Below are positions 5,327-31,301 of a DNA stretch of 33,641 nucleotides, in pieces. The stretch is from Betaproteobacteria bacterium (GTDB taxonomy: Bacteria; Pseudomonadota; Gammaproteobacteria; Burkholderiales; CAIKXV01). Position 1 is the first letter of the stretch, and each line of letters begins with the position of its first letter. Below the pieces are notes generated by a model. It searched no databases. It was not told where the DNA came from and saw nothing but the letters and a program-made list of their open reading frames with translations. The position numbers and the translations under genes were made by a program. The stretch is from the NCBI GenBank assembly GCA_947458835.1, contig CANHBC010000019.1, forward strand, positions 1 to 33,641. Direction: 5' to 3'.

Positions 5327-6316
5327 ATGTCCCGATCCGAAGCAGCCGCTGCGCTCACGGCGGTCGCGCTGTCCTGCCTTCCTTCACTCGCCGCCGCGCA
5401 GCCCCGGGCTTCCGCCCCGGCCTGGCCCGACCGGCCGCTGCGGCTGATCGTTCCGTTCGCGCCGGGCGGCAGTACCGATGCCGCCGCGCGCATCATCGGC
5501 CTGAAGCTGACCGAACTCTGGGGTCAGCAGGTACTGATCGACAACCGGCCCGGCGCAACCGGCATCATCGGCTCCGAGATGGTGGCCAAGGCGACCCCCG
5601 ACGGCTACACGCTCCTGTTCGGCACGATCGGTTCGCATTCGGTCAACGTCAGCCTGTTCAAGCTGAGCTACGACCCGCTGAAGGACTTCGAACCGGTCAC
5701 GATGACCGCCGCTGTCGGCAACGTCCTGGTGGTCAACGCGAAGTCGCCAGTCCGTTCGGTGAAGGACCTCATCACGCTTGCCCGGCAGAAGCCGGGCGAG
5801 CCCACGTTCGCCTCATCGGGCATCGGCGGCGCACCGCACCTGACCGGTGAGTTCTTCGCGCTGCAGACCGGGACGAAGCTCACCCATGTCCCGTACAAGG
5901 GCGGTGGCCCGGCGATGGCCGACCTCGTTTCCGGCAACGTCACGATGAGCTTCGCCTCGATGACCTCGGCGCTGCCGTTCATCAAGGACGGTCGCCTGCG
6001 GCCGCTGGCCGTGTCCTCGCGCAACCGCTCGCCGCAGCTGCCCGACGTCCCCACCATGATCGAGGCCGGGCTGCCCAACTTCGAGGTACGCGACTGGCAG
6101 GGGCTGTTCCTGCCGCGCGGCACGCCGCGCCCGATCGTCGACAAGCTGGCCCAGGGCGTCATCTCCGTGCTGAAGCAGCCGGACACGGTCGAGCGCTTCA
6201 GCGCGCAGGGCCTGGAGATCATCGCCAGCACCCCGGACGAATTCCGCAAGACGATTGCCTCGGAGATCGCGCGCTGGGCGAAGGTCGTGAAAGAAGCGAA
6301 CATCAAGGCGGAATAG
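5327..6316 (+). CDS. TctC/Bug-family substrate-binding protein
   Basis: Second Bug-family periplasmic receptor, 329 aa. The signal peptide covers about residues 1-24 (SLAAAQ), followed by the mature start WPDRPLRLIVPFAPGGSTD, PDGYT, and HVPYKGGGPAM in the second lobe. All these are standard for the family. AGGAG at 5316-5320 lies 6 bases before ATG 5327, fixing the start. It follows the amidase by 39 bp and precedes an MmgE/PrpD pair. The ligand is unknown. It is clearly diverged from the 1439 and 9344 paralogues, so it is not a recent tandem copy. Confidence 0.9.
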   Translation: MSRSEAAAALTAVALSCLPSLAAAQPRASAPAWPDRPLRLIVPFAPGGSTDAAARIIGLKLTELWGQQVLIDNRPGATGIIGSEMVAKATPDGYTLLFGTIGSHSVNVSLFKLSYDPLKDFEPVTMTAAVGNVLVVNAKSPVRSVKDLITLARQKPGEPTFASSGIGGAPHLTGEFFALQTGTKLTHVPYKGGGPAMADLVSGNVTMSFASMTSALPFIKDGRLRPLAVSSRNRSPQLPDVPTMIEAGLPNFEVRDWQGLFLPRGTPRPIVDKLAQGVISVLKQPDTVERFSAQGLEIIASTPDEFRKTIASEIARWAKVVKEANIKAE

Positions 6317-10647: not shown

Positions 10648-11664
10648 ATGAAGGATGCCCACGACGCCACACGGCCGAACCGGCCTTCCCTGCCGGCGCT
10701 GCTGGCCGTGCTGGCCCCCGCGGCCATGCTGGCAGGCACGACGACTTCAGCATGCGCGCAGGACGCCTGGCCACTGAAGCCACTGCGCATGGTCGCGCCC
10801 TTCCCGCCGGGAGGCACGACCGACGTGCTCGGGCGCATCGTTGCGCAACGCCTGTCCGATGCACTCGGCCGGCAGGTCGTGGTCGAGAACCGGCCGGGCG
10901 TCGGCGGCAACCTCGGCAACGAGTACGCGGCCAGGCTGCCGCCTGATGGCTACAACCTGCTGCTCAGCAGCAGCGCGCAGCTGGTCACGAACACGCACCT
11001 CTACAAGCGGCTCGGCTTTGATCCGCTCAACGACTTCTCGCCGGTCTCACTGCTTGCCGCCTCCGGCCAGGTGCTCGTGGTGCACCCCTCGGTGCCGGTG
11101 AAGACGGTGCAGCAGCTCGTCGCGATCGCCCGCGCGAAGCCGGGCATCCTGAACTTCGGTTCCGGCGGCCGGGGCACCCCGGCGCACGTCGCGGGCGAGG
11201 TGTTCCAGGTCGCCACCGGCACCCGCCTGGTACACGTGCCGTACAAGGGCGGGGGCCTCGCGGTCAACGACCTGGTCGCCGGGCAGATCGACATGGTGCT
11301 TTCGGACATGGCTCCGGCCGTGCCGCAGGTGAAGGCAGGCCGGCTGCGCGCGCTGGCGGTGACCAGTGTCGCGCGCTCGCCGGCGCTGCCTGACGTGCCG
11401 ACGCTTGCTGAAGCCGGCATCAAGGGCTCCATCCCCGAGGTCTGGTGGGTCATGATGACCCCGCGTGGAACGCCGCCGTCGGTCATCGCGCGGCTGAACG
11501 CGGAGATCGTCGCGATGATGAAGAGCAGCGACGTGCAGGAACGCTTCGCACAGCTGGGCCTCACACCGCTGCACTCCACGCCGGAACGGGTGACCGAGCT
11601 GATCCGGCTGGAGACGCCAGCGATCGGCAAGGCGCTGAAGGCTGCCGGGATCGAACCCGAATGA
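10648..11664 (+). CDS. TctC/Bug-family substrate-binding protein, coupled to E1 alpha
   Basis: Fourth Bug-family receptor, 338 aa from ATG 10648. An ATG at 10642 is only one base after the GGAGGAG at 10634-10640, too close for good initiation, so the second ATG is chosen. The signal peptide is long and ends near ACAQD-AW (residue ~38-39). The mature part shows MVAPFPPGGTTD, PDGYN in place of the usual PDGYT, and HVPYKGGGLAV. The stop overlaps the start of the E1 alpha gene (ATGA, 11661-11664). It leads a four-gene unit with both E1 subunits and an amidase, so its ligand is plausibly a 2-oxo acid, acetoin-like compound or precursor amide. Confidence 0.9.
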   Translation: MKDAHDATRPNRPSLPALLAVLAPAAMLAGTTTSACAQDAWPLKPLRMVAPFPPGGTTDVLGRIVAQRLSDALGRQVVVENRPGVGGNLGNEYAARLPPDGYNLLLSSSAQLVTNTHLYKRLGFDPLNDFSPVSLLAASGQVLVVHPSVPVKTVQQLVAIARAKPGILNFGSGGRGTPAHVAGEVFQVATGTRLVHVPYKGGGLAVNDLVAGQIDMVLSDMAPAVPQVKAGRLRALAVTSVARSPALPDVPTLAEAGIKGSIPEVWWVMMTPRGTPPSVIARLNAEIVAMMKSSDVQERFAQLGLTPLHSTPERVTELIRLETPAIGKALKAAGIEPE

Positions 11665-20621: not shown

Positions 20622-22121
20622 TCAGCGCATCACGAACGGATTGGGGACCTCGGTAGCGGTGGAGATCCAGACGCTCTTGGTCTGCAGGTATTCGTGGATC
20701 ATGTCCTGCCCGTTCTCGCGCCCCAGCCCGCTGCGCTTGTATCCGCCGAACGGCGACAGGTAGGACACTGCACGATAGGTGTTGACCCAGACCGTACCGG
20801 CGCGCAGCTGTTCGCTCATCTTCAGCGCCCGCCGCATGTCCTGCGTCCAGACGCCCGCAGCCAGTCCGAACTGCACGTCGTTGGCGATTCGGATCGCATC
20901 GGCCTCGTCCTCGAACGGAATCACCGACAGCACCGGCCCGAACACCTCCTCCTGGGCAATGCGCATCGAATTGTGCACGCCGACGAAGATGGTCGGCTCG
21001 ACGAACCAGCCTGCACCGCACTCCGGACGCACGGCCTTGCCGCCGCCCAGCACCGGGATCGCCCCCTCCCCGCGCGCGATGTCGATGTACTCGAGGATCT
21101 TCCGGTACTGCGGCTCGTTGGTGACCGGGCCGACCTGGGTGTCCAGGCTCATCGGGTCGCCCATGCGCGCGGTGCTGGCGAATTCGACCAGTGACTGCAC
21201 GAAGGCATCGTGGATCGACCGCTGCACCAGCAGGCGCGATCCGGCGATGCAGGTCTGTCCGGTCGCAGCGAAGATGCCGGAGATCACGCCCTTGACTGCA
21301 TTGTCGAGATGCGCATCGTCGAACACGATGTTCGGCGACTTGCCGCCGAGTTCCATGCTGACCCGCTTCAGACCCCTGGCCGCCGCCTGGTAGATCAGCT
21401 GTCCGGTGCGGTCGGAGCCGGTGAACGCGACCTTCGCCACCTTCGGGTGTTCCGACAGCGGAGCGCCAACGTCCGGCCCGAAGCCGGTGACTACATTGAC
21501 CACCCCGGGCGGGAAGCCGGCCTGCTCGATGAGCGACATGAACTCCAGCACCGACGCCGACGTGTACTCCGACGGCTTGATCACCACCGTGTTGCCCGCG
21601 GCCAATGCCGGCGCGAGCTTCCAGGCCGTCAGCAGCAGCGGGGAGTTCCACGGGACGATGGCCGCGATCACGCCCAGCGGCTCGTGGCGGGTGAAGTTCA
21701 GCACGTCGGCCTTGTCGGTGGGGATCACCGCGCCTTCGATCTTGTCGGCGAGTCCGCCGTAGTAGCGGTACCAGTTCGCCATGTAGGCGGTCTGCGCGGC
21801 CATCTCCGACAGCAGCTTGCCGTTGTCGCGCACCTCGATGGCCGCCAGCCGCGGCGCCTCGGGCCCGATCAGGTCGGCCAGGCGCAGCAGCAGCGCGCCA
21901 CGCTGCGAGGCGGTGAGCCTCGGCCATGGCCCGCTGGTGAACGCGCGGTGTGCAGCCTCGACCGCACAGTCGACGTCGCGCGCGTCTCCCTGCGCGACCC
22001 TCGCCCACGGGCGCGCCGTGAACGGGTTGACCGTCTCGAAGTAGCGATCGCCCGCAGGCTCGACCTCGCGGCCGTCGATATAGTGCCGGTAGACCTTCAG
22101 TGCCTCGCCGCTGCTTTCCAT
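20622..22121 (-). CDS. NAD(P)-dependent aldehyde dehydrogenase
   Basis: Aldehyde dehydrogenase superfamily, 499 aa, full length; it oxidises an aldehyde to the carboxylate. Catalytic residues are all visible: Asn159 in VPWNSPLL, Glu257 in SMELGGKSPN and nucleophile Cys291 in GQTCIAGSR. The NAD-binding FTGSDRTGQ (233-241) and the C-terminal NTYRAVSYLSPFGGYKRSG motif are intact. GGAGG lies 8-12 bases before ATG 22121. It is the third gene of a unit with the two subunits of a ThDP decarboxylase. The natural reading is that it oxidises the aldehyde made by that decarboxylase. The betaine-aldehyde/hydroxymuconic semialdehyde branch is another possible source, but context does not support it. Confidence 0.92.
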   Translation of the reverse strand: MESSGEALKVYRHYIDGREVEPAGDRYFETVNPFTARPWARVAQGDARDVDCAVEAAHRAFTSGPWPRLTASQRGALLLRLADLIGPEAPRLAAIEVRDNGKLLSEMAAQTAYMANWYRYYGGLADKIEGAVIPTDKADVLNFTRHEPLGVIAAIVPWNSPLLLTAWKLAPALAAGNTVVIKPSEYTSASVLEFMSLIEQAGFPPGVVNVVTGFGPDVGAPLSEHPKVAKVAFTGSDRTGQLIYQAAARGLKRVSMELGGKSPNIVFDDAHLDNAVKGVISGIFAATGQTCIAGSRLLVQRSIHDAFVQSLVEFASTARMGDPMSLDTQVGPVTNEPQYRKILEYIDIARGEGAIPVLGGGKAVRPECGAGWFVEPTIFVGVHNSMRIAQEEVFGPVLSVIPFEDEADAIRIANDVQFGLAAGVWTQDMRRALKMSEQLRAGTVWVNTYRAVSYLSPFGGYKRSGLGRENGQDMIHEYLQTKSVWISTATEVPNPFVMR

Positions 22122-22173
22122 CTCTGTTGCCTCCGTTGCGCGGCAGCCGCCGCAGCCGGCGCCGGGCGCGCGG

Positions 22174-22812
22174 TCAGGACTGCTTCGCGGCAGGCATCAT
22201 CACCGGATGCGCTACCGCGGGGCCGAGCAGCGCGTCGCGGAACCGGCTGCGGATGTACGGGCCGTCGCGCATCGGGAGGGTCATCGGCGGCTGCGCCGGG
22301 TCGACCTTGATCGCAACGAATGCAAGGCCTGGCGCCTCGATCGCTGCGAGGGCCGCCGGGAACTCCTCGGTTACCGAGACCCGGCAAGCCTGCGGGAAGC
22401 CGCACGCGCGCGCGATGCCGACCAGGTCTACGCCGCGGCCGGTGTGGGTGCCCTGCATGCCGGTCTCGACGTAGTGCTCGTTGTCCATCACGACGATCTT
22501 CAGATTGGGCGGCTGCTCGCAGCCGATCGTGGCCAGACTGCCCAGGCCCATCAGCATCTCGCCATCGCCGGTGATGCACAGCACGCGGCGCCCGGGCTGT
22601 GCCAGCGCAAGACCGCAGGCGACCATTGCCGCACCGCCCATGCCGGCCCAGTTGTAGAAGTTGAGCGGGTTGTCGCCGGCCGAGAACACGTCGTAGCACG
22701 TGGTGCCGAGGCCGGTAACAACCAGCGCATCGCCGCGGCGTGCGAGGATGGCGTCGATCAGCGGACGGCGAAGCAGGGCCGGCGCGTCGGCCGGGGAAGT
22801 GGCACTGGTCAT
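22174..22812 (-). CDS. ThDP-binding subunit of split 2-oxoacid decarboxylase (ComE/sulfopyruvate decarboxylase beta-like)
   Basis: A 212-aa C-terminal-type ThDP domain as a stand-alone subunit. It carries GLGTTCYDVFSAGD (34-47) and the cofactor motif from GDGEMLMG (82-89) to MDNEHY (109-114). Gene pairs of this kind include sulfopyruvate decarboxylase (ComDE) and, as one chain, phosphonopyruvate decarboxylase. The enzyme would turn a substituted pyruvate into the corresponding aldehyde plus CO2. GGAGG lies about 10 bases before ATG 22812. It lies 30 bp after the partner subunit and 52 bp before the aldehyde dehydrogenase. Sulfopyruvate is only one candidate; no sulfolactate dehydrogenase, Xsc or sulfonate transporter is in the window. 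Confidence 0.82.
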   Translation of the reverse strand: MTSATSPADAPALLRRPLIDAILARRGDALVVTGLGTTCYDVFSAGDNPLNFYNWAGMGGAAMVACGLALAQPGRRVLCITGDGEMLMGLGSLATIGCEQPPNLKIVVMDNEHYVETGMQGTHTGRGVDLVGIARACGFPQACRVSVTEEFPAALAAIEAPGLAFVAIKVDPAQPPMTLPMRDGPYIRSRFRDALLGPAVAHPVMMPAAKQS

Positions 22813-22842
22813 GGGCGTTCGTTCCTCCGGGCCGCGGGAGCC

Positions 22843-23367
22843 CTACTTGTTCCAGTTCTTGGCGCCGATCGCACGCTGGCCGATCAGCACCGCGACCGCA
22901 CGGCCGGTGTTGAACGCCATCTGCGCCGCCGCGCCGACGGTAGGCGCGATGTCGGCCGGCTGGTGGACCGGGTAGACCAGAGTGCCGACACTCTCCAGTG
23001 CCGCACGCGTACCCTGTCCCATCGGCAGTTGCCACGGGTTGAACTCGGCCCACTCGCCGCGCATGGTCACCAGCATCAGCAGTGGCACGCGCATCTCGAT
23101 CGGCGCAGCGAGCATGTTGATCGTGTTGCCCACGCCCGAGGACTGCATCAGCAGCACATGCCGGTCTCCGCCGAGCCAGGCACCCAGGCCGAGCGCGACG
23201 CCCTCCTCCTCGGTGGTCAGCGACACCGTGCGCATCGACGGATCGGCCTGGCATCGCTGGATCAGCCGGCTGTGTCCGGCATCGGGCACGTAGGACACCT
23301 GGCGGATGCCTGCCGCCACCAGCTCGGCATAGACATCGTCCGGCCAGCCGGAAGTAACTTCTGCCAC
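22843..23367 (-). CDS. Pyrimidine-binding subunit of split 2-oxoacid decarboxylase (ComD/sulfopyruvate decarboxylase alpha-like)
   Basis: N-terminal-type ThDP domain, 174 aa from GTG 23367, about the length of ComD. SYVPDAGHSRLIQ (25-37) and TTEEEGVALGLGAWLGG (51-67) are the family marks; one of Glu53-55 activates ThDP. An ATG at 23472 would add 35 arginine-rich residues unlike the family. That ATG also lies inside a probable -10 box (TATGAT, 23473-23468), so a transcript from this promoter would not contain it. The GTG start is therefore preferred. The gene pairs with the subunit at 22174 to complete two ThDP sites at the subunit interface. Confidence 0.78.
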   Translation of the reverse strand: MAEVTSGWPDDVYAELVAAGIRQVSYVPDAGHSRLIQRCQADPSMRTVSLTTEEEGVALGLGAWLGGDRHVLLMQSSGVGNTINMLAAPIEMRVPLLMLVTMRGEWAEFNPWQLPMGQGTRAALESVGTLVYPVHQPADIAPTVGAAAQMAFNTGRAVAVLIGQRAIGAKNWNK

Positions 23368-23467
23368 GTTGGGGTTCCAGTATCTGAGCGCGCCCGGGGG
23401 CGTACCGCGCGACCTGCGGCGCGGAATCCGCCGGGACGGAGGGTGACGGGATCGTCGGGCGTTTTGC

Positions 23468-23497
23468 ATCATAGGATTCGCTGTCCCCGGTGGTCAA
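23468..23497 (-). promoter_or_regulatory. Sigma-70-like promoter for the decarboxylase-aldehyde dehydrogenase unit
   Basis: On the minus strand TTGACC (23497-23492), an 18-base spacer and TATGAT (23473-23468) match five of six consensus positions in each box. Transcription would start near 23461, giving a leader of about 94 bases before GTG 23367. Confidence 0.55.
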
Positions 23498-23588: not shown

Positions 23589-24755
23589 ATGAATGCCCCA
23601 CACCCCAGCGATACCCACCAGCCCCTGCGCCAGGCCGTGCGCGACCTTTGCAGCGCGTTCGACGGCGAATACTGGCGCCGCATCGATGAAGAGCGCGGCT
23701 ATCCCGAGGCGTTCATCAAGGCGCTCGAGGAGGCCGGCTGGCTCGGCGCGCTGATCCCCGAGGAATACGGCGGCTCGGGCGTGACGCTGACCGAGGCCTC
23801 GATCATCCTTGAGGAGATCAACCACGCCGGGGGCAACTCTGGCTACGTCCATGCGCAGATGTACACCATGGGCACGGTGCTGCGGCACGGATCCGAGGAG
23901 CAGAAGCGCAGGTACCTGCCCGGCATCGCCTCGGGGCAACTGCGCCTGCAATCCTTCGGCGTCACCGAGCCCTCGACCGGCACCGACACCACGAACCTGA
24001 AGACCACCGCCGTGCGCAAGGGCGACCGCTACGTGGTCAACGGCCAGAAGGTGTGGATCTCCCGCGTGCTCTACTCCGACCTGATGCTGCTGCTCGCGCG
24101 CACCACGCCGAAGGACCAGTGCAAGCGCAAGTCCGACGGCCTGTCGGTGTTCATCGTCGACCTCAAGCAGTCGATCGGCAAGGGCCTCACGGTCAAGCCC
24201 ATCCGCAACATGATGAACCACCAGACCAACGAGCTGTTCTTCGACAACCTCGAGGTACCAGCCGAGAACCTGATCGGCGAGGAAGGACGCGGCTTCCGCT
24301 ACATCCTCGACGGCATGAACGCCGAGCGCCTGCTGATCGCCGCCGAGTGCATCGGCGACGGCCACTGGTTCATCGAGAAGGCCACGCAGTACGCGAAGGA
24401 CCGCGTCGTGTTCGACCGGCCGATCGGCCAGAACCAGGGCATCCAGTTCCCGATCGCACGGGCACACATCAACGTGGAGGCAGCCGACCTGATGCGCTTC
24501 AAGGGCTGCCGGATGTTCGACGACGGGCTGCCGTGCGGCGCCGAGGCGAACATGGCCAAGCTGCTGGCCGCGGACGCTTCCTGGGAAGCAGCCAACGTAT
24601 GCGTGCAGACTCATGGCGGCTTCGGCTTTGCCGCCGAGTATGACGTCGAGCGCAAGTTCCGCGAGACCAAGCTCTACCAGGTGGCGCCGATCTCGACCAA
24701 CCTGATCCTCTCCTACGTCGGCGAGCATGTCCTCGGCATGCCGCGCTCGTTCTGA
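23589..24755 (+). CDS. Acyl-CoA dehydrogenase family protein
   Basis: FAD-dependent acyl-CoA dehydrogenase, 388 aa, full length; it introduces an alpha,beta double bond in an acyl-CoA and passes electrons to ETF. SFGVTEPSTGTDTTNLKTTA (122-141) is the flavin/substrate loop, and FDRPIGQNQGIQFPIA the C-terminal signature. The base position of medium-chain enzymes near the C-terminus is non-acidic (LYQVAPIS). Glu246 in GMNAERLL instead matches the helix-G glutamate used by isovaleryl-CoA dehydrogenase. A short or branched acyl-CoA is therefore likelier than a straight medium chain. It is the first gene of the plus-strand unit and lies 16 bp before a CoA-transferase. Confidence 0.9.
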   Translation: MNAPHPSDTHQPLRQAVRDLCSAFDGEYWRRIDEERGYPEAFIKALEEAGWLGALIPEEYGGSGVTLTEASIILEEINHAGGNSGYVHAQMYTMGTVLRHGSEEQKRRYLPGIASGQLRLQSFGVTEPSTGTDTTNLKTTAVRKGDRYVVNGQKVWISRVLYSDLMLLLARTTPKDQCKRKSDGLSVFIVDLKQSIGKGLTVKPIRNMMNHQTNELFFDNLEVPAENLIGEEGRGFRYILDGMNAERLLIAAECIGDGHWFIEKATQYAKDRVVFDRPIGQNQGIQFPIARAHINVEAADLMRFKGCRMFDDGLPCGAEANMAKLLAADASWEAANVCVQTHGGFGFAAEYDVERKFRETKLYQVAPISTNLILSYVGEHVLGMPRSF

Positions 24756-24771
24756 ACCGCGGGCCGCACCG

Positions 24772-25968
24772 ATGAACCCTTCCCCTCAGCGCAGGCCGCT
24801 CGAAGGCATCACTGTCGTTTCCATCGAGCAGGCGGTGGCGGCACCGTTCGCCGCCCGCCAGCTCGGCGACCTCGGCGCGCGCGTGATCAAGCTCGAGCGC
24901 CCCGACGGCGGCGACTTCGCGCGCGCGTACGACAAGGCGGTGGACGGCCAGTCGGCCTACTTCGTCTGGCTCAACCGCAACAAGGAGTCGCTGTCGCTCG
25001 ACCTGAAGCAGCCGGCCGCACGCGAAGCGCTGCATCGGCTGGTCGAGCGCGCGGATGTGTTCATCCAGAACCTCGCGCCCGGAGCCGTCGACCGGCTGGG
25101 CTTCGGCGCGGCGACATTGCGTGCGAAGCACCCGCGCCTGATCACCTGCGACATCTCCGGCTATGGCACCGAGGGCCCGTACGCCGACAAGAAGGCCTAC
25201 GACCTGCTGATCCAGAGCGAGTCTGGCGTGCTGTCGGTCACCGGCACCGCGGACACCCCGTGCAAGGTCGGTGTGTCGATCGCCGACATCGCGACCGGCA
25301 TGCATGCGTACTCGGCGATCCTGGCGGCGCTGTACCGTCGCGAACGCGACGGCACCGGGGCGCAGATCGAGGTCCCGATGTTCGACTGCCTGGTCGAATG
25401 GAACAGCCATCCGGTCTACTACACGCACTACTCGGGTAACGCACCCAAGCGCAGCGGCCCCGACCACGCCACCATCGTGCCCTACGGCAAGTTCGACTGC
25501 GCGGATGGCCGCAGCGTGATGCTCGGGGTGCAGAACGAGCGGGAGTGGGCGGCGTTCTGTGACAAGGTGCTAGGCCGGCCGGAACTCGCACGCGACGAGC
25601 GCTACGACAGCAACACCAAGCGTACCGGGCGGCGCGCCGAGATGATGGAGGTCTTTCAGTCGGTCTTCTCGACGATCACCGCAGCCGAACTGGTGCAAAG
25701 GCTTGACGCCGCCGGCATCGCCAACGGCCGCCTGAACACGCCAGCCGACGTCTGGGAGCATCCCCAGCTTGAGGCGCGCGACCGCTGGCGCACGGTCGAC
25801 CACCCCGGCGGGACGATGCGCGCGGTGCTGCCGCCGGCGGTGTTCGACGATTTCGAGGCGGCGATGGCACCGGTGCCCGCACTCGCCGAACATACCGACC
25901 GGATCCTGGCCGAACTCGGCTACGGGGCCGAATCGATCCGTTCACTGCACGAATCCGGCGCTGCCTGA
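24772..25968 (+). CDS. CaiB/BaiF family (class III) CoA-transferase
   Basis: Family III CoA-transferase, 398 aa, moving CoA between carboxylic acids. The start is ATG 24772 (MNPSPQRRPLEG); the upstream in-frame ATG at 24727 lies in the previous gene. VVSIEQAVAAPFAARQLGDL (15-34) is the N-terminal family segment. Asp144 in KAYDLLIQSESG is the catalytic aspartate that forms the anhydride and CoA-thioester intermediates. It directly follows the acyl-CoA dehydrogenase, so the pair probably activates an organic acid and then oxidises its CoA ester. An 8-bp hairpin begins at its stop codon. Confidence 0.92.
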   Translation: MNPSPQRRPLEGITVVSIEQAVAAPFAARQLGDLGARVIKLERPDGGDFARAYDKAVDGQSAYFVWLNRNKESLSLDLKQPAAREALHRLVERADVFIQNLAPGAVDRLGFGAATLRAKHPRLITCDISGYGTEGPYADKKAYDLLIQSESGVLSVTGTADTPCKVGVSIADIATGMHAYSAILAALYRRERDGTGAQIEVPMFDCLVEWNSHPVYYTHYSGNAPKRSGPDHATIVPYGKFDCADGRSVMLGVQNEREWAAFCDKVLGRPELARDERYDSNTKRTGRRAEMMEVFQSVFSTITAAELVQRLDAAGIANGRLNTPADVWEHPQLEARDRWRTVDHPGGTMRAVLPPAVFDDFEAAMAPVPALAEHTDRILAELGYGAESIRSLHESGAA

Positions 25969-26038: not shown

Positions 26039-27430
26039 ATGAGCGTACCGTCCAACCCGCCCGTGGCCGGCGAGACCGCCGCGCTGTCCGCCTTCCTCGC
26101 GCAGCTGCGCCCTGAGCAGATCCCCACCGAGGTCGTCGCTCGCTGCGAAGACCTGTTCCTCGACTGGTTCGCCTGCACCCTGGCCGGACGGTCGGCACGT
26201 CCGGTGAAGATCTTCGAGGGGTTCGCGGCGGCGATGGGTCCCTCGGGCAACCTCGGCCCGGCCGGTGCTCAGGTCCTGACCAACCGCACCGCCTCCTCGC
26301 CGCTATTTGCCGCGATGGTCAACGCGGCCGCGTCGCATGTCGTCGAACAGGACGACCTGCACAACAGTTCGGTGCTGCACCCGGCCACGGTCGTGTTCCC
26401 GGCAGCGCTCGCCACCGCGCAGTCGATCGGCGCCTCCGGCCGTGACTTCATCGCCGCATGCGTCGCCGGCTACGAATGCGGCATCCGCGTCGGCGAGTTC
26501 CTCGGTCGCTCCCACTACCGAGTGTTCCATACGACCGGCACCGCCGGCACGCTGGCCGCGGCCGCCGCGGTTGGCCACCTGCTGCGCCTGGACGCCGACC
26601 GCATGCAGCATGCGCTCGGCTCGGCCGGCACCCAGGCCGCCGGGCTGTGGGAGTTCCTGCGCGACGCCGCCGACTCCAAGCAGTTGCACACGGCCAAGGC
26701 CGCCGGCAATGGCCTGACTGCAGCCTGGCTGGCGCGCGACGGGTTCACCGGCGCCCGCCGCATCCTCGAAGGGCCTACCGGGATGGCGGCTGGTATGTCC
26801 ACCGATGCCGACCCGGCTTGTCTGGTCGACCGCCTCGGCACCCGCTGGGCCCTGGCCGAGACCTCGTTCAAGTTCCACGCGTCCTGCCGCCATACCCATC
26901 CGGCTGCCGATGCGCTGCTCGAACTGATGCAGTCGCACGGCATCGCCGCCGATGCGATCGCTGGCGTGCGTTGCCACGTCCACCAGGGCGCGATCGACGT
27001 GCTGGGCCCGGTGACCGATCCGCGCACCATCCACCAGTCCAAGTTCTCGATGGGCTTCGTGCTCGCGCAGATCGCGCTGCACGGCCGTGCCGGCCTCGGC
27101 GAGTTCACCGACCCGGCGCTGCGTGATGCAGAGGTACGCGCTTTCCTGGAGCGGGTGACGATGGTGCTCGACCCCGAGGTCGACGGCGCCTATCCGAAGC
27201 GCTGGCTCGGACGGGTCGAGGTGTTTACCACCGATGGTCGCCGCATCGAACAGCGGATCGACACGCCCAAGGGCGATCCGGGCAACACGCTGACCCGCCC
27301 CGAACTCGAGGACAAGGCCCTGCGCCTCGCCGCCTATGCCGACGGTGCATCGCCCGCCGAGATGCGCGCGGTGATCGCCCGCTGCTGGCGGCTGCACGAC
27401 GAAGCCGGCGTGCGCGACTGGCTCGCCTGA
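26039..27430 (+). CDS. MmgE/PrpD family protein
   Basis: Fourth MmgE/PrpD-fold enzyme, 463 aa. GGAGGAGAG (26022-26030) fixes ATG 26039; an open frame further upstream is a shadow. Active-site equivalents are EQDDLHNSSVLHPA (103-116, with Asp105/Asp106 and His114), His164 in VFHTTGTAG and Lys214 in DSKQLHTAKAAGNG. It differs clearly from the other three copies in the window. Flanked by CoA-transferase and SBP plus tartrate dehydratase, it could handle a dicarboxylate from the same pathway, but its reaction cannot be assigned. Confidence 0.88.
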   Translation: MSVPSNPPVAGETAALSAFLAQLRPEQIPTEVVARCEDLFLDWFACTLAGRSARPVKIFEGFAAAMGPSGNLGPAGAQVLTNRTASSPLFAAMVNAAASHVVEQDDLHNSSVLHPATVVFPAALATAQSIGASGRDFIAACVAGYECGIRVGEFLGRSHYRVFHTTGTAGTLAAAAAVGHLLRLDADRMQHALGSAGTQAAGLWEFLRDAADSKQLHTAKAAGNGLTAAWLARDGFTGARRILEGPTGMAAGMSTDADPACLVDRLGTRWALAETSFKFHASCRHTHPAADALLELMQSHGIAADAIAGVRCHVHQGAIDVLGPVTDPRTIHQSKFSMGFVLAQIALHGRAGLGEFTDPALRDAEVRAFLERVTMVLDPEVDGAYPKRWLGRVEVFTTDGRRIEQRIDTPKGDPGNTLTRPELEDKALRLAAYADGASPAEMRAVIARCWRLHDEAGVRDWLA

Positions 27431-27501: not shown

Positions 27502-28566
27502 ATGCACCCCACCCGCCGGGCGAACACGCCCGCCACTCCACCCGCCCCGGCCTGCCACGTAGCCCGCTCGGCGTCCAGGCGTGGCCTGCCTGCCATTGCC
27601 AGTCGGGCCGGCCTGCTGGCTTTCGGCCTGCTGCTGGCCACCGGCGTGCCTGCTGCGCTCGCCCAGCAGGCCTGGCCGGTCAAGCCGGTGCGCATGCTGA
27701 TCCCCTGGCCGCCCGGCGGCTCGAACGATGTCGCGGGGCGCATCGTCGCACCGCGGCTGGCCGAAGCACTCGGGCAGCCGATCACCATCGAGAACCGGGG
27801 CGGCGCGGCGGGCACGGTCGGCGCCGACGTGGTCGCCCGCTCGGAGCCGGACGGCTACACGCTGATGCTGCATTCGGTGACCCACCTCTCGAACGCCGCG
27901 CTGTACCCGAAGCTGACGTACGACACGGTGAAGGACTTCACCCCGATCGGCATGGTGTCCACGCAGCCCACGCTGCTGGTGGTTCATCCGTCCTTCCCGG
28001 TGCGCTCGGTGAAGGACCTGATCGCGCTGGCACGGGCCAAGCCGAGGCAGGTGCTCTATGGTTCGGCAGGCAACGGCAGCGCGCCGCACCTGTCGATGAC
28101 GTTGTTCGCCTCGATGGCGAAGGTCGAACTCGAGCACGTCCCGTACAAGGGCGGTGGTCCCGCACTGGCCGGGCTGCTCGGCGGCGAGGTACCGCTGATG
28201 CTCGCCACCGTGCCTTCGGTGATGGGACAGGTCAAGTCGGGCAAGCTGCGCGCGGTGGCCACTGCGTCGGCCCGCCGCCTGCCGATGCTGCCCGAGGTAC
28301 CCACCGTCTCCGAGTCCGGGCTGCCGGGCTACGAGATGAGTCCGTGGATGGGCATGTGGGGCCCTGCACGGCTGCCGCGCCCGATCGTCGACCAGGTCAA
28401 CCGGGCATTGGCGAAGGTGCTGTCCATCCCGGACGTGCGCGACCAGTTCATGCAGCAGGGGCTGGAGCCGATGGCGATGTCCGTCGAGGAGTTCGCCGCG
28501 CTGATCCCGCGCGAAGTCGAACGCTACGCGCGCCTGATCAGGCTGTCGGGCGCACGCGTCGAATAG
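27502..28566 (+). CDS. TctC/Bug-family substrate-binding protein next to tartrate dehydratase
   Basis: Sixth Bug-family receptor, 354 aa, the longest of the set because of an extended basic N-terminus. GAGGAG precedes ATG 27502 by 6 bases. A later start inside the leader is possible. The hydrophobic core AGLLAFGLLLATGVPAALAQ gives a signal peptide ending near ALAQQ-AW. The mature part has MLIPWPPGGSND, PDGYT and HVPYKGGGPAL. The first loop is WPPGGSND rather than FPPGGTTD. It ends 17 bp before tarD, so a hydroxy-dicarboxylate such as tartrate is a reasonable ligand guess. Confidence 0.9.
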   Translation: MHPTRRANTPATPPAPACHVARSASRRGLPAIASRAGLLAFGLLLATGVPAALAQQAWPVKPVRMLIPWPPGGSNDVAGRIVAPRLAEALGQPITIENRGGAAGTVGADVVARSEPDGYTLMLHSVTHLSNAALYPKLTYDTVKDFTPIGMVSTQPTLLVVHPSFPVRSVKDLIALARAKPRQVLYGSAGNGSAPHLSMTLFASMAKVELEHVPYKGGGPALAGLLGGEVPLMLATVPSVMGQVKSGKLRAVATASARRLPMLPEVPTVSESGLPGYEMSPWMGMWGPARLPRPIVDQVNRALAKVLSIPDVRDQFMQQGLEPMAMSVEEFAALIPREVERYARLIRLSGARVE

Positions 28567-28583
28567 ATCACCCGGAGGCTGCC

Positions 28584-29759
28584 GTGCCCAGGATCGTCGC
28601 CATCCACCAGGCCACTGCCCCGATCGCCTCGGCGATCCGCAATGCCTACATCGACTTCACGAAGATGGACGCGAGCATCGTCGCGGTGGTCACCGACGTG
28701 ATGCGCGACGGTCGTCCGGTGGTCGGCTACGGCTTCAATTCGAACGGCCGCTATTCCCAGCAGGGGCTGCTGCGCGAGCGCTTCATCCCGCGCCTGCTCG
28801 CAGCAGACCCGGCCTCGCTCCTCGACGACACCGGCGACAACCTCGACCCGCACCGCGCGTGGGCATGCATGTTCGCCAACGAGAAGCCGGGCGGACACGG
28901 CGAGCGCTCGGTCGCGATCGGCGTGCTCGACATGGCCCTGTGGGACGCAGTGGCCAAGATCGAACGCAAGCCCCTGTGGCGGCTGCTGGCCGATCGTTAC
29001 CGGGATGGCGAGGCCGACGAGCGGGTGTTCGTGTATGCCGCGGGCGGCTACTACCATCCGGGCAAGGACCTCGCGGCCCTGCAGGACGAGATGCGTGGAT
29101 ATCTCGACCTCGGCTACTCAGTGGTCAAGATGAAGATCGGCGACGACCTCGACGAGGACCTGCGCCGCATCGACGCCGTGCTGAAGGTGGTGGGCAGTGG
29201 CGACCGGCTTGCGGTGGACGCGAACGGGCGCTTCGACCTCGACACCGCGGTCGCCTATGCGAAGGCGCTCGCTCCCTACGGGCTGTTCTGGTACGAGGAG
29301 GCCGGCGATCCGCTCGACTTCTCGCTGCAGGCGGCGCTGGCCAGGCACTATCCCCATCCGATGGCCACCGGCGAAAACCTGTTCTCCATGCAGGACGCAC
29401 GCAACCTCGTGCGCCATGCAGGCCTTCGGCCCGACCGGGACTGGCTGCAGTTCGACTGCGCACTGTCCTACGGCCTGGTCGAGTACCTGCGCATCCTCGA
29501 CATGCTGCGCGAGCACGGCTGGTCGGCGCGGCGCTGCATTCCCCATGGCGGCCACCAGATGTCGCTCAACATCGCCGCCGGGCTCGGCCTCGGGGGCAAC
29601 GAGTCCTACCCCGGCGTGTTCCAGCCGTTCGGTGGCTTCGCCGACGGCATCCCGGTGGAGGACGGCCACGTGCGGCTACCCGATATCCCGGGCGTGGGCT
29701 TCGAGGCCAAGTCCGCGCTGTTCGCACGGCTGTCCACCCTGCTGCCGGGGCATGGATGA
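28584..29759 (+). CDS. tarD: D(-)-tartrate dehydratase (enolase superfamily)
   Basis: Mandelate racemase/muconate lactonizing enzyme-type protein, 391 aa from GTG 28584, with CGGAGG 6-11 bases upstream. It closely follows the Bradyrhizobium TarD sequence as I remember it, including FNSNGRYSQQGLLRERF and CIPHGGHQMSLNIAAGLGLG. Functional residues fall at the expected places, one lower than in TarD: Lys101, Lys182 and Lys184 in VVKMKIG, metal ligands Asp212, Glu238 and Glu264, and His321. It should dehydrate D-tartrate to enol-oxaloacetate, feeding the TCA cycle. It overlaps the next gene by four bases and follows an SBP closely. Another C4 hydroxy acid substrate cannot be fully excluded. Confidence 0.9.
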   Translation: MPRIVAIHQATAPIASAIRNAYIDFTKMDASIVAVVTDVMRDGRPVVGYGFNSNGRYSQQGLLRERFIPRLLAADPASLLDDTGDNLDPHRAWACMFANEKPGGHGERSVAIGVLDMALWDAVAKIERKPLWRLLADRYRDGEADERVFVYAAGGYYHPGKDLAALQDEMRGYLDLGYSVVKMKIGDDLDEDLRRIDAVLKVVGSGDRLAVDANGRFDLDTAVAYAKALAPYGLFWYEEAGDPLDFSLQAALARHYPHPMATGENLFSMQDARNLVRHAGLRPDRDWLQFDCALSYGLVEYLRILDMLREHGWSARRCIPHGGHQMSLNIAAGLGLGGNESYPGVFQPFGGFADGIPVEDGHVRLPDIPGVGFEAKSALFARLSTLLPGHG

Positions 29760-30133
29760 AGTTCCACCTCGCCGATACCGCCGGGCTGAACGCGATCACC
29801 GGCCATGGGCCGGGGCACGTGCTGGTGAATGGCGTGCGTCACGACCGGCCGCTGCTGGTCGGCCCGTCCCTGGGCCCGCTCGACTGGGAGGCGCCCGGCT
29901 TTGCGGGCCTGCAGGCCGTCCACTTCGAAGCGCTGCTCGGCCACGATCCCGAACTGGTGCTGCTGGGCACCGGCGCCCGCCTGCGCTTCCCGCACCCCGC
30001 GGTCACCCGCAGCCTGGCCGTCGCCCGCATCGGCATCGAGGTAATGGATACACCGGCCGCGTGCAGAACATACAACATCCTCACCGGCGAGGGCCGGAAG
30101 GTGGTCGCGGCCCTGCTCTTCGACCCGACCTGA
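29756..30133 (+). CDS. Mth938-like (DUF498) domain protein
   Basis: Small single-domain protein, 125 aa, of the Mth938/NDUFAF3-like fold (DUF498). Marks are GLNAITGHGPGHVLVNG near the N-terminus, LLVGPSLGPLDW (34-45), PELVLLGTG (65-73) and the C-terminal YNILTGEGRKVVAALLF. Bacterial members are of unknown function. It starts on an ATGA overlap with tarD, so it is translated with the dehydratase, although the family is not otherwise tied to tartrate. It ends the plus-strand unit. Confidence 0.85.
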   Translation: MKFHLADTAGLNAITGHGPGHVLVNGVRHDRPLLVGPSLGPLDWEAPGFAGLQAVHFEALLGHDPELVLLGTGARLRFPHPAVTRSLAVARIGIEVMDTPAACRTYNILTGEGRKVVAALLFDPT

Positions 30134-30362: not shown

Positions 30363-31301
30363 TCAGGCGTCCTGCGCCACTCCGGCGAGCCTGCGCACGT
30401 GCGCCAGCACGCTGCGCGACAGCGCAGGCAGGCTGTACCCCCCCTCGAGCACGGAGACGATGCGTCCGGCGCAGAGCCGGTCGGCCGCGCCCATCAGGCG
30501 CCCGGTGACCCAGTCGTAGTCGTCCTCCACCAGCGCGAGCGAGGCGAGCTGGTCGTCGCGATGGGCATCGAATCCGGCGGAGATGAACAGCATCTGCGGC
30601 CCGAACGCCTCCAGCGCCGGCAGCCATTCCTGCTCGACCGCGGCCCGGAAGGCCCGGCCATCGGCCCCGGAAGGCAGCGGGACGTTGACCATCCGCTCAC
30701 CGCGACCGTCGATGCCGCTGTACGGATACAGGGGATGCTGGAAGGTCGAGACCATCATCACGCGCGGATCGTCCCGGAAGATGTCCTCGGTACCATTGCC
30801 ATGGTGCACGTCGAAGTCCACCACCGCGACCCGCTCGAAGCCATGCGCCTCGAGCGCATGCAGTGCCGCGATCGCGACATTGTTGAACAGGCAGAAGCCC
30901 ATCGCCCGGGCGTGCTCCGCATGGTGGCCCGGTGGGCGGACCGCACAGAACGCGTTGTCGACCTCGCCGCGGGCGACCAGGTCGGTCGCCCGCACCGCCG
31001 CCCCGGCGGCATGCCGGATCGCCTCCAGTGTATGCGGGTTCATCGCGGTATCCGGGTCGATCTGGCGCAGTCCGCTCGACGGGGACGCACGCTCGAGTGC
31101 ATCGATCAACCTCCGATCGTGTGCCCGCTCGATCTGCTCGCGGGTGACCGCGGGCGCCGTCTCGCGGCGCAGGCAGCCAGCCAGCGCCGCATCGCGCTCG
31201 ATGCGCGCCTCGATCGCGACCAGCCGGTCGGGGCATTCGGGATGCCCGGCGCCCATGTCGTGCAGCAGGCAGCTGGGGTGGGAGAGCCAGGCGGTGGTCA
31301 T
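30363..31301 (-). CDS. Histone deacetylase-family zinc amidohydrolase
   Basis: Full-length (312 aa) bacterial HDAC/acetylpolyamine-amidohydrolase/AcuC superfamily protein, a zinc deacetylase of the cytoplasm. Seen are HPECPDRL (20-27), PPGHHAE with the His126-His127 dyad, and VDFDVHHGNG with zinc ligands Asp164 and His166. The third ligand is Asp245 in SAGFDAHRDD, and the catalytic-type Tyr289 lies in LEGGYS. It resembles the class II-like HDAH group; natural substrates may be acetyl-lysine, acetylpolyamine or small amides. It is alone on its strand, divergent from the MoxR gene across a 239-bp gap. An in-frame EAL-like relic follows its stop. Confidence 0.92.
   Translation of the reverse strand: MTTAWLSHPSCLLHDMGAGHPECPDRLVAIEARIERDAALAGCLRRETAPAVTREQIERAHDRRLIDALERASPSSGLRQIDPDTAMNPHTLEAIRHAAGAAVRATDLVARGEVDNAFCAVRPPGHHAEHARAMGFCLFNNVAIAALHALEAHGFERVAVVDFDVHHGNGTEDIFRDDPRVMMVSTFQHPLYPYSGIDGRGERMVNVPLPSGADGRAFRAAVEQEWLPALEAFGPQMLFISAGFDAHRDDQLASLALVEDDYDWVTGRLMGAADRLCAGRIVSVLEGGYSLPALSRSVLAHVRRLAGVAQDA

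Follow-up and report, generated by a model that had tools for sequence, protein, structure and literature searches.

A tarD gene beside a putative methylsuccinate-isomerase module adjoins a resident DUF498 gene in a bacterium of the Burkholderiales

What would a protein of the DUF498/Mth938 family have to do with tartrate, and why should its start codon overlap the stop codon of a D-tartrate dehydratase gene? The question is raised by a stretch of 33,641 nucleotides from a bacterium of the Burkholderiales (hereafter, the window), in which an earlier sequence-only reading had described a substrate-binding protein (SBP) gene, tarD and a DUF498 gene as one unit for tartrate uptake and dehydration. 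The three genes are present on the plus strand as that reading had placed them, in both Pfam and open-reading-frame calls (Table 1), with 17 bp between the first two and a four-base overlap, ATGA, between the last two. The unit as drawn omitted the upstream genes for an acyl-CoA dehydrogenase (ACAD), a CoA transferase (CaiB) and an MmgE/PrpD protein, although these are conserved with it. Scans for promoters and terminators gave matches at chance level only; the plus-strand genes may be co-transcribed.

Table 1. Features of the locus and the evidence for their names
Feature	Positions	Strand	Evidence
Aldehyde dehydrogenase, divergent	20622..22121	-	PF00171; present across genus loci
TPP enzyme C-terminal half, sulfopyruvate decarboxylase beta-like, divergent	22174..22812	-	below NCBIfam cut-offs; conserved
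TPP enzyme N-terminal half, sulfopyruvate/phosphonopyruvate decarboxylase alpha-like, divergent	22843..23472	-	genus conservation
Acyl-CoA dehydrogenase, methylsuccinyl-C4-CoA dehydrogenase (Mcd) orthologue	23589..24755	+	Pfam; 76% to P. xenovorans
Class III CoA transferase, itaconate CoA transferase (Ict) homologue	24727..25968	+	CoA_transf_3; 59% to P. xenovorans
MmgE/PrpD, (S)-(R)-methylsuccinate isomerase (Msi) orthologue	26039..27430	+	60-61% to P. xenovorans; residues; clade
TctC/Bug periplasmic SBP	27502..28566	+	PF03401
TarD, D-tartrate dehydratase, enolase superfamily	28584..29759	+	PDB 2dw7/1tzz/4kem; catalytic residues KKDEEH
DUF498/Mth938 protein, resident gene, 4-base overlap with tarD stop	29756..30133	+	PF04430
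Histone-deacetylase-family protein (HDAC), conserved DUF498 flank, outside tartrate group	30363..31301	-	Pfam

The tarD gene starts with GTG after ACCCGGAGGC and encodes 391 amino acids with an MR_MLE_C domain (Pfam). Its nearest solved chains in the PDB comparison were 4kem, 2dw7, 1tzz and 2dw6, all matched over the full length, and the match to the Bradyrhizobium TarD in 2dw7 (Bll6730) spanned 384 residues (residues 3-386; E 3.4e-185, 619 bits). All six catalytic residues (K182, K184, D212, E238, E264 and H321) are present and align with 2dw7, and the same six are common to all 102 loci L002-L103, a set that includes the window's own locus (L082) and paralogues at 49-56% identity. The roles reportedly assigned to such residues by Yew et al. 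in 2006 are those of a KxK motif, D-E-E metal ligands and a catalytic histidine. The second lysine of KMKIG is not shared between 2dw7 and 2dw6, the latter presumably being a mutant of the catalytic lysine. On sequence and residues, the window protein is thus securely recognisable as a predicted D-tartrate dehydratase, in agreement with the sequence-only reading; the characterised enzyme is, in PMC10079672, the D-tartrate dehydratase of B. japonicum. Most members of the genus also encode another TarD-like protein (L091-L103; about 49-56% identical) in which the six catalytic residues are kept, the copy in the window's own genome being L093 (G000:C5:35828-36976).

The neighbourhoods of tarD were surveyed in 80 loci plus the window, the 80 being the best of 590 matches rather than a random sample, with neighbour family names taken from one representative each. 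LysR regulators of two families flank most of these loci (near 45 and 15). DctA is found near 21 of them, malic enzyme near 10, tartrate dehydrogenase near 5, and 17 have a Bug-type SBP gene no more than four genes away from tarD. The recurrence of LysR, DctA, tartrate dehydrogenase and the like beside tarD fits a role in tartrate use.

The genes upstream of the SBP resemble part of a cluster for methylsuccinate/itaconate degradation. ACAD, CaiB and MmgE lie in the same order in P. xenovorans LB400 (genome G026), between homologues of the hydratase Ich and the lyase Ccl. We took the MmgE protein of that genome to be Bxe_B2582, because it is the sole match there to the window MmgE at E <= 1e-60; according to Gonner et al. 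2025 (PMC12290011), Bxe_B2582 was assayed as a methylsuccinate isomerase (Msi). The seven Msi residues named in that paper (His88, Glu91, His102, Tyr148, His152, Lys202 and Lys266) are all present in the window MmgE when it is aligned to the P. xenovorans protein, with the P. aeruginosa numbers matched by motif, and both proteins fall inside one 40-sequence clade (97/98). The genetics of the P. aeruginosa genes was provided by De Witt et al. 2023 (PMC9875883). Identification of the window MmgE as a 2-methylcitrate dehydratase or cis-aconitate decarboxylase was rejected (NCBIfam PrpD, 36.5 bits against a cut-off of 950), and its PDB matches, to 'IRG1' of B. subtilis and IDS epimerase, were only moderate, the P. 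xenovorans protein being far closer.

The module appears to be incomplete. No gene in the interval from 20.6 to 30.1 kb encodes Ich or Ccl; homologues of Ich (53 and 47% identical) occur unlinked elsewhere in the same genome, as do homologues of Ccl (full-length identities of 38 and 32%, plus a partial match at 44%), and among the 11 genomes of the genus there was no clear Ccl orthologue, the best full-length match reaching 39%. Because there is no clear Ccl orthologue and the Ich homologues are unlinked, a complete methylsuccinate route is unproven. An Ich-like hydratase (L223:7342-8307, G000:C54) lies beside ring-hydroxylating-dioxygenase-like and enolase-superfamily-like genes, names that we take from our reading of the translations. 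An MmgE orthologue occurs in 34 of 250 genomes of the order, and of 26 contexts outside the genus 15 have ACAD within 8 kb, 9 have CaiB, 9 Ich, 6 Ccl and 2 tarD. Since 11 of these 26 lack ACAD within 8 kb, the clade may vary in function. Complete clusters hold only 36.4% of isomerase genes in Gonner et al. (PMC12290011), which also states that the isomerase gene always adjoins the dehydrogenase gene; the clade members L153-L156, L158, L159, L169, L178 and L179, which lack both ACAD and Ich within 8 kb, depart from that adjacency. On the minus strand of the window, the divergent aldehyde dehydrogenase and two-gene TPP enzyme (20622-23472) are retained in the genus, the N-terminal half of the latter scoring 102 bits against an NCBIfam cut-off of 148.

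We consider it probable that the locus is an incomplete methylsuccinate module followed by an SBP gene and tarD, lying against a resident DUF498 gene. In such a C4/C5 dicarboxylate catabolic island, MmgE/PrpD would epimerise methylsuccinate from its (S)- to its (R)-form, which the CoA transferase would activate with succinyl-CoA, and the acyl-CoA dehydrogenase would yield mesaconyl-C4-CoA, the final hydratase and lyase being supplied from elsewhere in the genome. The Bug-type SBP may bind tartrate, the C5 acid or some other dicarboxylate, with a membrane partner encoded elsewhere, and TarD, at the 3′ end, would dehydrate D-tartrate and so feed oxaloacetate into central metabolism by a separate path. 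DUF498 would be a housekeeping-type gene beside which the island came to rest. The sequences themselves show the genes, their residues, their synteny and the spread of DUF498; the reactions, the transport, any co-transcription and the sequence of events are inferred from these.

It is possible, if rather unlikely, that the MmgE module is a methylsuccinate pathway with an unlinked hydratase and lyase and that tarD is there as a passenger by chance, connected with it neither in regulation nor in metabolism. The two Ich homologues elsewhere in the genome favour this proposal, as does genome G044 of the same genus, in which comDE-ACAD-CaiB-MmgE lies on one contig and the SBP orthologue (75%) on another, directly before DUF498, with 70 bases between them and no tarD; a tarD homologue (74%) is on a different contig. 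The contig with MmgE ends just past that gene, and a tie between the G044 SBP and the MmgE side is therefore something that we only infer. The absence of a strong Ccl orthologue speaks against the passenger proposal, and so does the recurrence of MmgE-tarD linkage in other lineages, at five loci outside the genus (L002, L009, L010, L153 and L155, the first three of which came from the tarD survey). This linkage could reflect a joint function rather than two routes.

The SBP is a clear TctC protein (PF03401; E 2.5e-72, 244 bits, cut-off 27), its nearest relatives outside the genus do not exceed 53% identity, and our comparisons returned no close relative with a known ligand. The window's own genome of 3.76 Mb encodes at least 150 TctC SBPs (276 candidates, 150 scored, the weakest shown at E 5e-65), so adjacency is a weak clue to the ligand. 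This expansion of the TctC/Bug family is very large, and members within the window include 5486-6301, 10834-11622 and 27739-28542. The candidacy of the SBP as a proven tartrate receptor is not supported, given G044, the distant relatives and the size of the family.

The DUF498 protein is an unambiguous member of its family (PF04430; E 1.3e-32, 112.5 bits, cut-off 33) and the only one encoded in its genome. The family is present in 239 of 250 genomes of the order, irrespective of tarD, which at E <= 1e-150 was found in 28; DUF498 is thus a near-universal and normally single-copy gene of the order. Among the 39 genomes behind tarD loci L002-L041 (L025 left out), 37 carry the family, 36 of them in single copy. 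We examined the DUF498 context in 30 of these 37 (L115-L132 and L141-L152, all outside the genus), and AlaA or homoserine dehydrogenase (Hom) lay within 1.5 kb in 28. The two exceptions were L118, in which a contig end is close to DUF498, and L120, which comes from the same genome as the Azospirillum locus L039. None of the 30 had TarD, MmgE or the SBP within 3.5 kb of DUF498; MoxR and TgpA were nearby in 4 and HDAC in 2. Conversely, a profile built from the 30 DUF498 proteins recovered the window copy and found none in the 80 tarD loci. Among the matches listed, which covered 12 of the 21 genomes of the order outside the genus that have tarD, DUF498 lay near tarD in none. The position of DUF498 beside AlaA and homoserine dehydrogenase, in many cases together with threonine synthase (ThrC), is strongly conserved (28/30) and may say more about its function than tarD does. 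No paper among the DUF498/Mth938 matches listed concerned tartrate by its title.

These distributions bear directly on the proposal that SBP, TarD and DUF498 form a dedicated unit for tartrate uptake and dehydration, with DUF498 as an accessory or assembly factor. Its tight spacing, the constant order in all eight genomes of the genus that carry this tarD, the source of the window among them, and the 17 surveyed loci with nearby Bug SBPs lend it some appeal, but we regard it as improbable in view of the spread of DUF498 regardless of tarD, its absence near tarD in 30 contexts and 80 loci, the SBP that adjoins DUF498 without tarD in G044, and the abundance of TctC proteins. A role for DUF498 as a TarD accessory was rejected on grounds of distribution and synteny. 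Of the earlier description, then, the genes and the naming of TarD stand; the single unit does not, and the neighbourhood survey that it had recommended contradicts the idea of DUF498 as a tartrate partner, since in the contexts surveyed outside the genus the linkage was not found.

How, then, did tarD and DUF498 come to overlap? This tarD occurs in 8 of 11 genomes of the genus (85-93% identity), DUF498 follows it in all eight, and the pair was seen in this genus only; the ATGA overlap is found in six of the eight, with gaps in the other two. As the pair is kept in 8/8 and the overlap in 6/8, selection for coupling is possible, and ATGA may couple the translation of DUF498 to that of tarD; the overlap implies no role of DUF498 in tartrate use. 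Downstream, the genus keeps HDAC, MoxR, DUF58-like and TgpA-like genes in that order (DUF58 and TgpA presumably, from our reading of the sequences), as does L129 outside the genus, and DUF498-HDAC-MoxR is also found in both L125 and L129. In one genome of the genus (G046) the contig starts at DUF498, and in another (G041) no DUF498 was found. The two long contigs of the genus that carry DUF498 (G042 contig C22, 138,750 bases; G049 contig C8, 172,932 bases) contain no AlaA, Hom or ThrC. As the trio is absent from both contigs, the insertion of a small piece between it and DUF498 is not supported, and a larger rearrangement is likelier. Because the right flank of DUF498 is kept outside the genus while AlaA-Hom-ThrC is missing, the right flank would be old and the left flank exchanged. 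Whether tarD was gained after the split of G044 or lost in G044 turns on a tree in which G044 branches first, with a support of only 67.

We also regard as improbable a reading in which MmgE/PrpD is a tartrate epimerase, converting meso- or L-tartrate to D-tartrate for TarD, with the CoA transferase acting on a product. Enzymes of the MmgE family use 1,4-dicarboxylates through deprotonation at C2, according to PMC12290011, and CaiB-MmgE-tarD without ACAD occurs at two of the five linked loci outside the genus (L002 and L009); if this proposal were true, meso- and L-tartrate would be consumed too. However, the window MmgE shares its residues and clade with the assayed methylsuccinate isomerase, which the same source reports as inactive on citramalate and (R)-malate, the nearest hydroxy-acids tried, and MmgE and tarD lie within 8 kb of each other in only 2 of the 12 genomes outside the genus in the order sample that have both. 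An elaboration in which an Msi-type MmgE is re-used as the epimerase and the TPP enzyme and aldehyde dehydrogenase pass the TarD product, oxaloacetate, which resembles sulfo- and phosphonopyruvate, to malonate semialdehyde and malonate for activation by the CoA transferase is very unlikely.

The locus is an ordinary catabolic neighbourhood, and what it newly points to is the proximity of tarD to a methylsuccinate-isomerase module. The neighbourhood survey removes a false lead, that of a tartrate function for DUF498, and the testable link in its place is that between tarD and this module, in the genus and at the five loci outside it. Methylsuccinate together with tartrate was not found among the matches listed in a single literature search. 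A more general caution is that a start/stop overlap constant within one genus can arise from the joining of unrelated genes.

In comparison with known systems, the window DUF498 protein belongs to the same family as 3cpk, 2k2e and 2gm2 (PF04430) and is a single-copy gene product in the order, whereas its usual AlaA-Hom-ThrC neighbours are gone in this genus and catabolic genes adjoin it instead. The SBP is similar over its full length to the Bug/TctC proteins 2dvz, 2qpq (Bug27) and 2f5x (BugD). TarD resembles the B. japonicum enzyme (Bll6730; PDB 1tzz, 2dw6, 2dw7) in its full length, its six catalytic positions and its membership of the enolase superfamily, but the neighbours of its gene differ, and its stereospecificity is predicted only. 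The itaconate/methylsuccinate clusters of Cupriavidus necator, Pa. xenovorans and P. aeruginosa (PA0878-PA0886) comprise Ich, Mcd, Ict, Msi and Ccl. The window matches the Pa. xenovorans cluster in its ACAD-CaiB-MmgE order, with high identity and all of the Msi residues, and a TTT SBP gene lies near the C. necator cluster too. Unlike these clusters, the window has no local Ich or Ccl; the SBP gene and tarD come after the module instead, and the divergent TPP-enzyme and aldehyde-dehydrogenase genes set it further apart.
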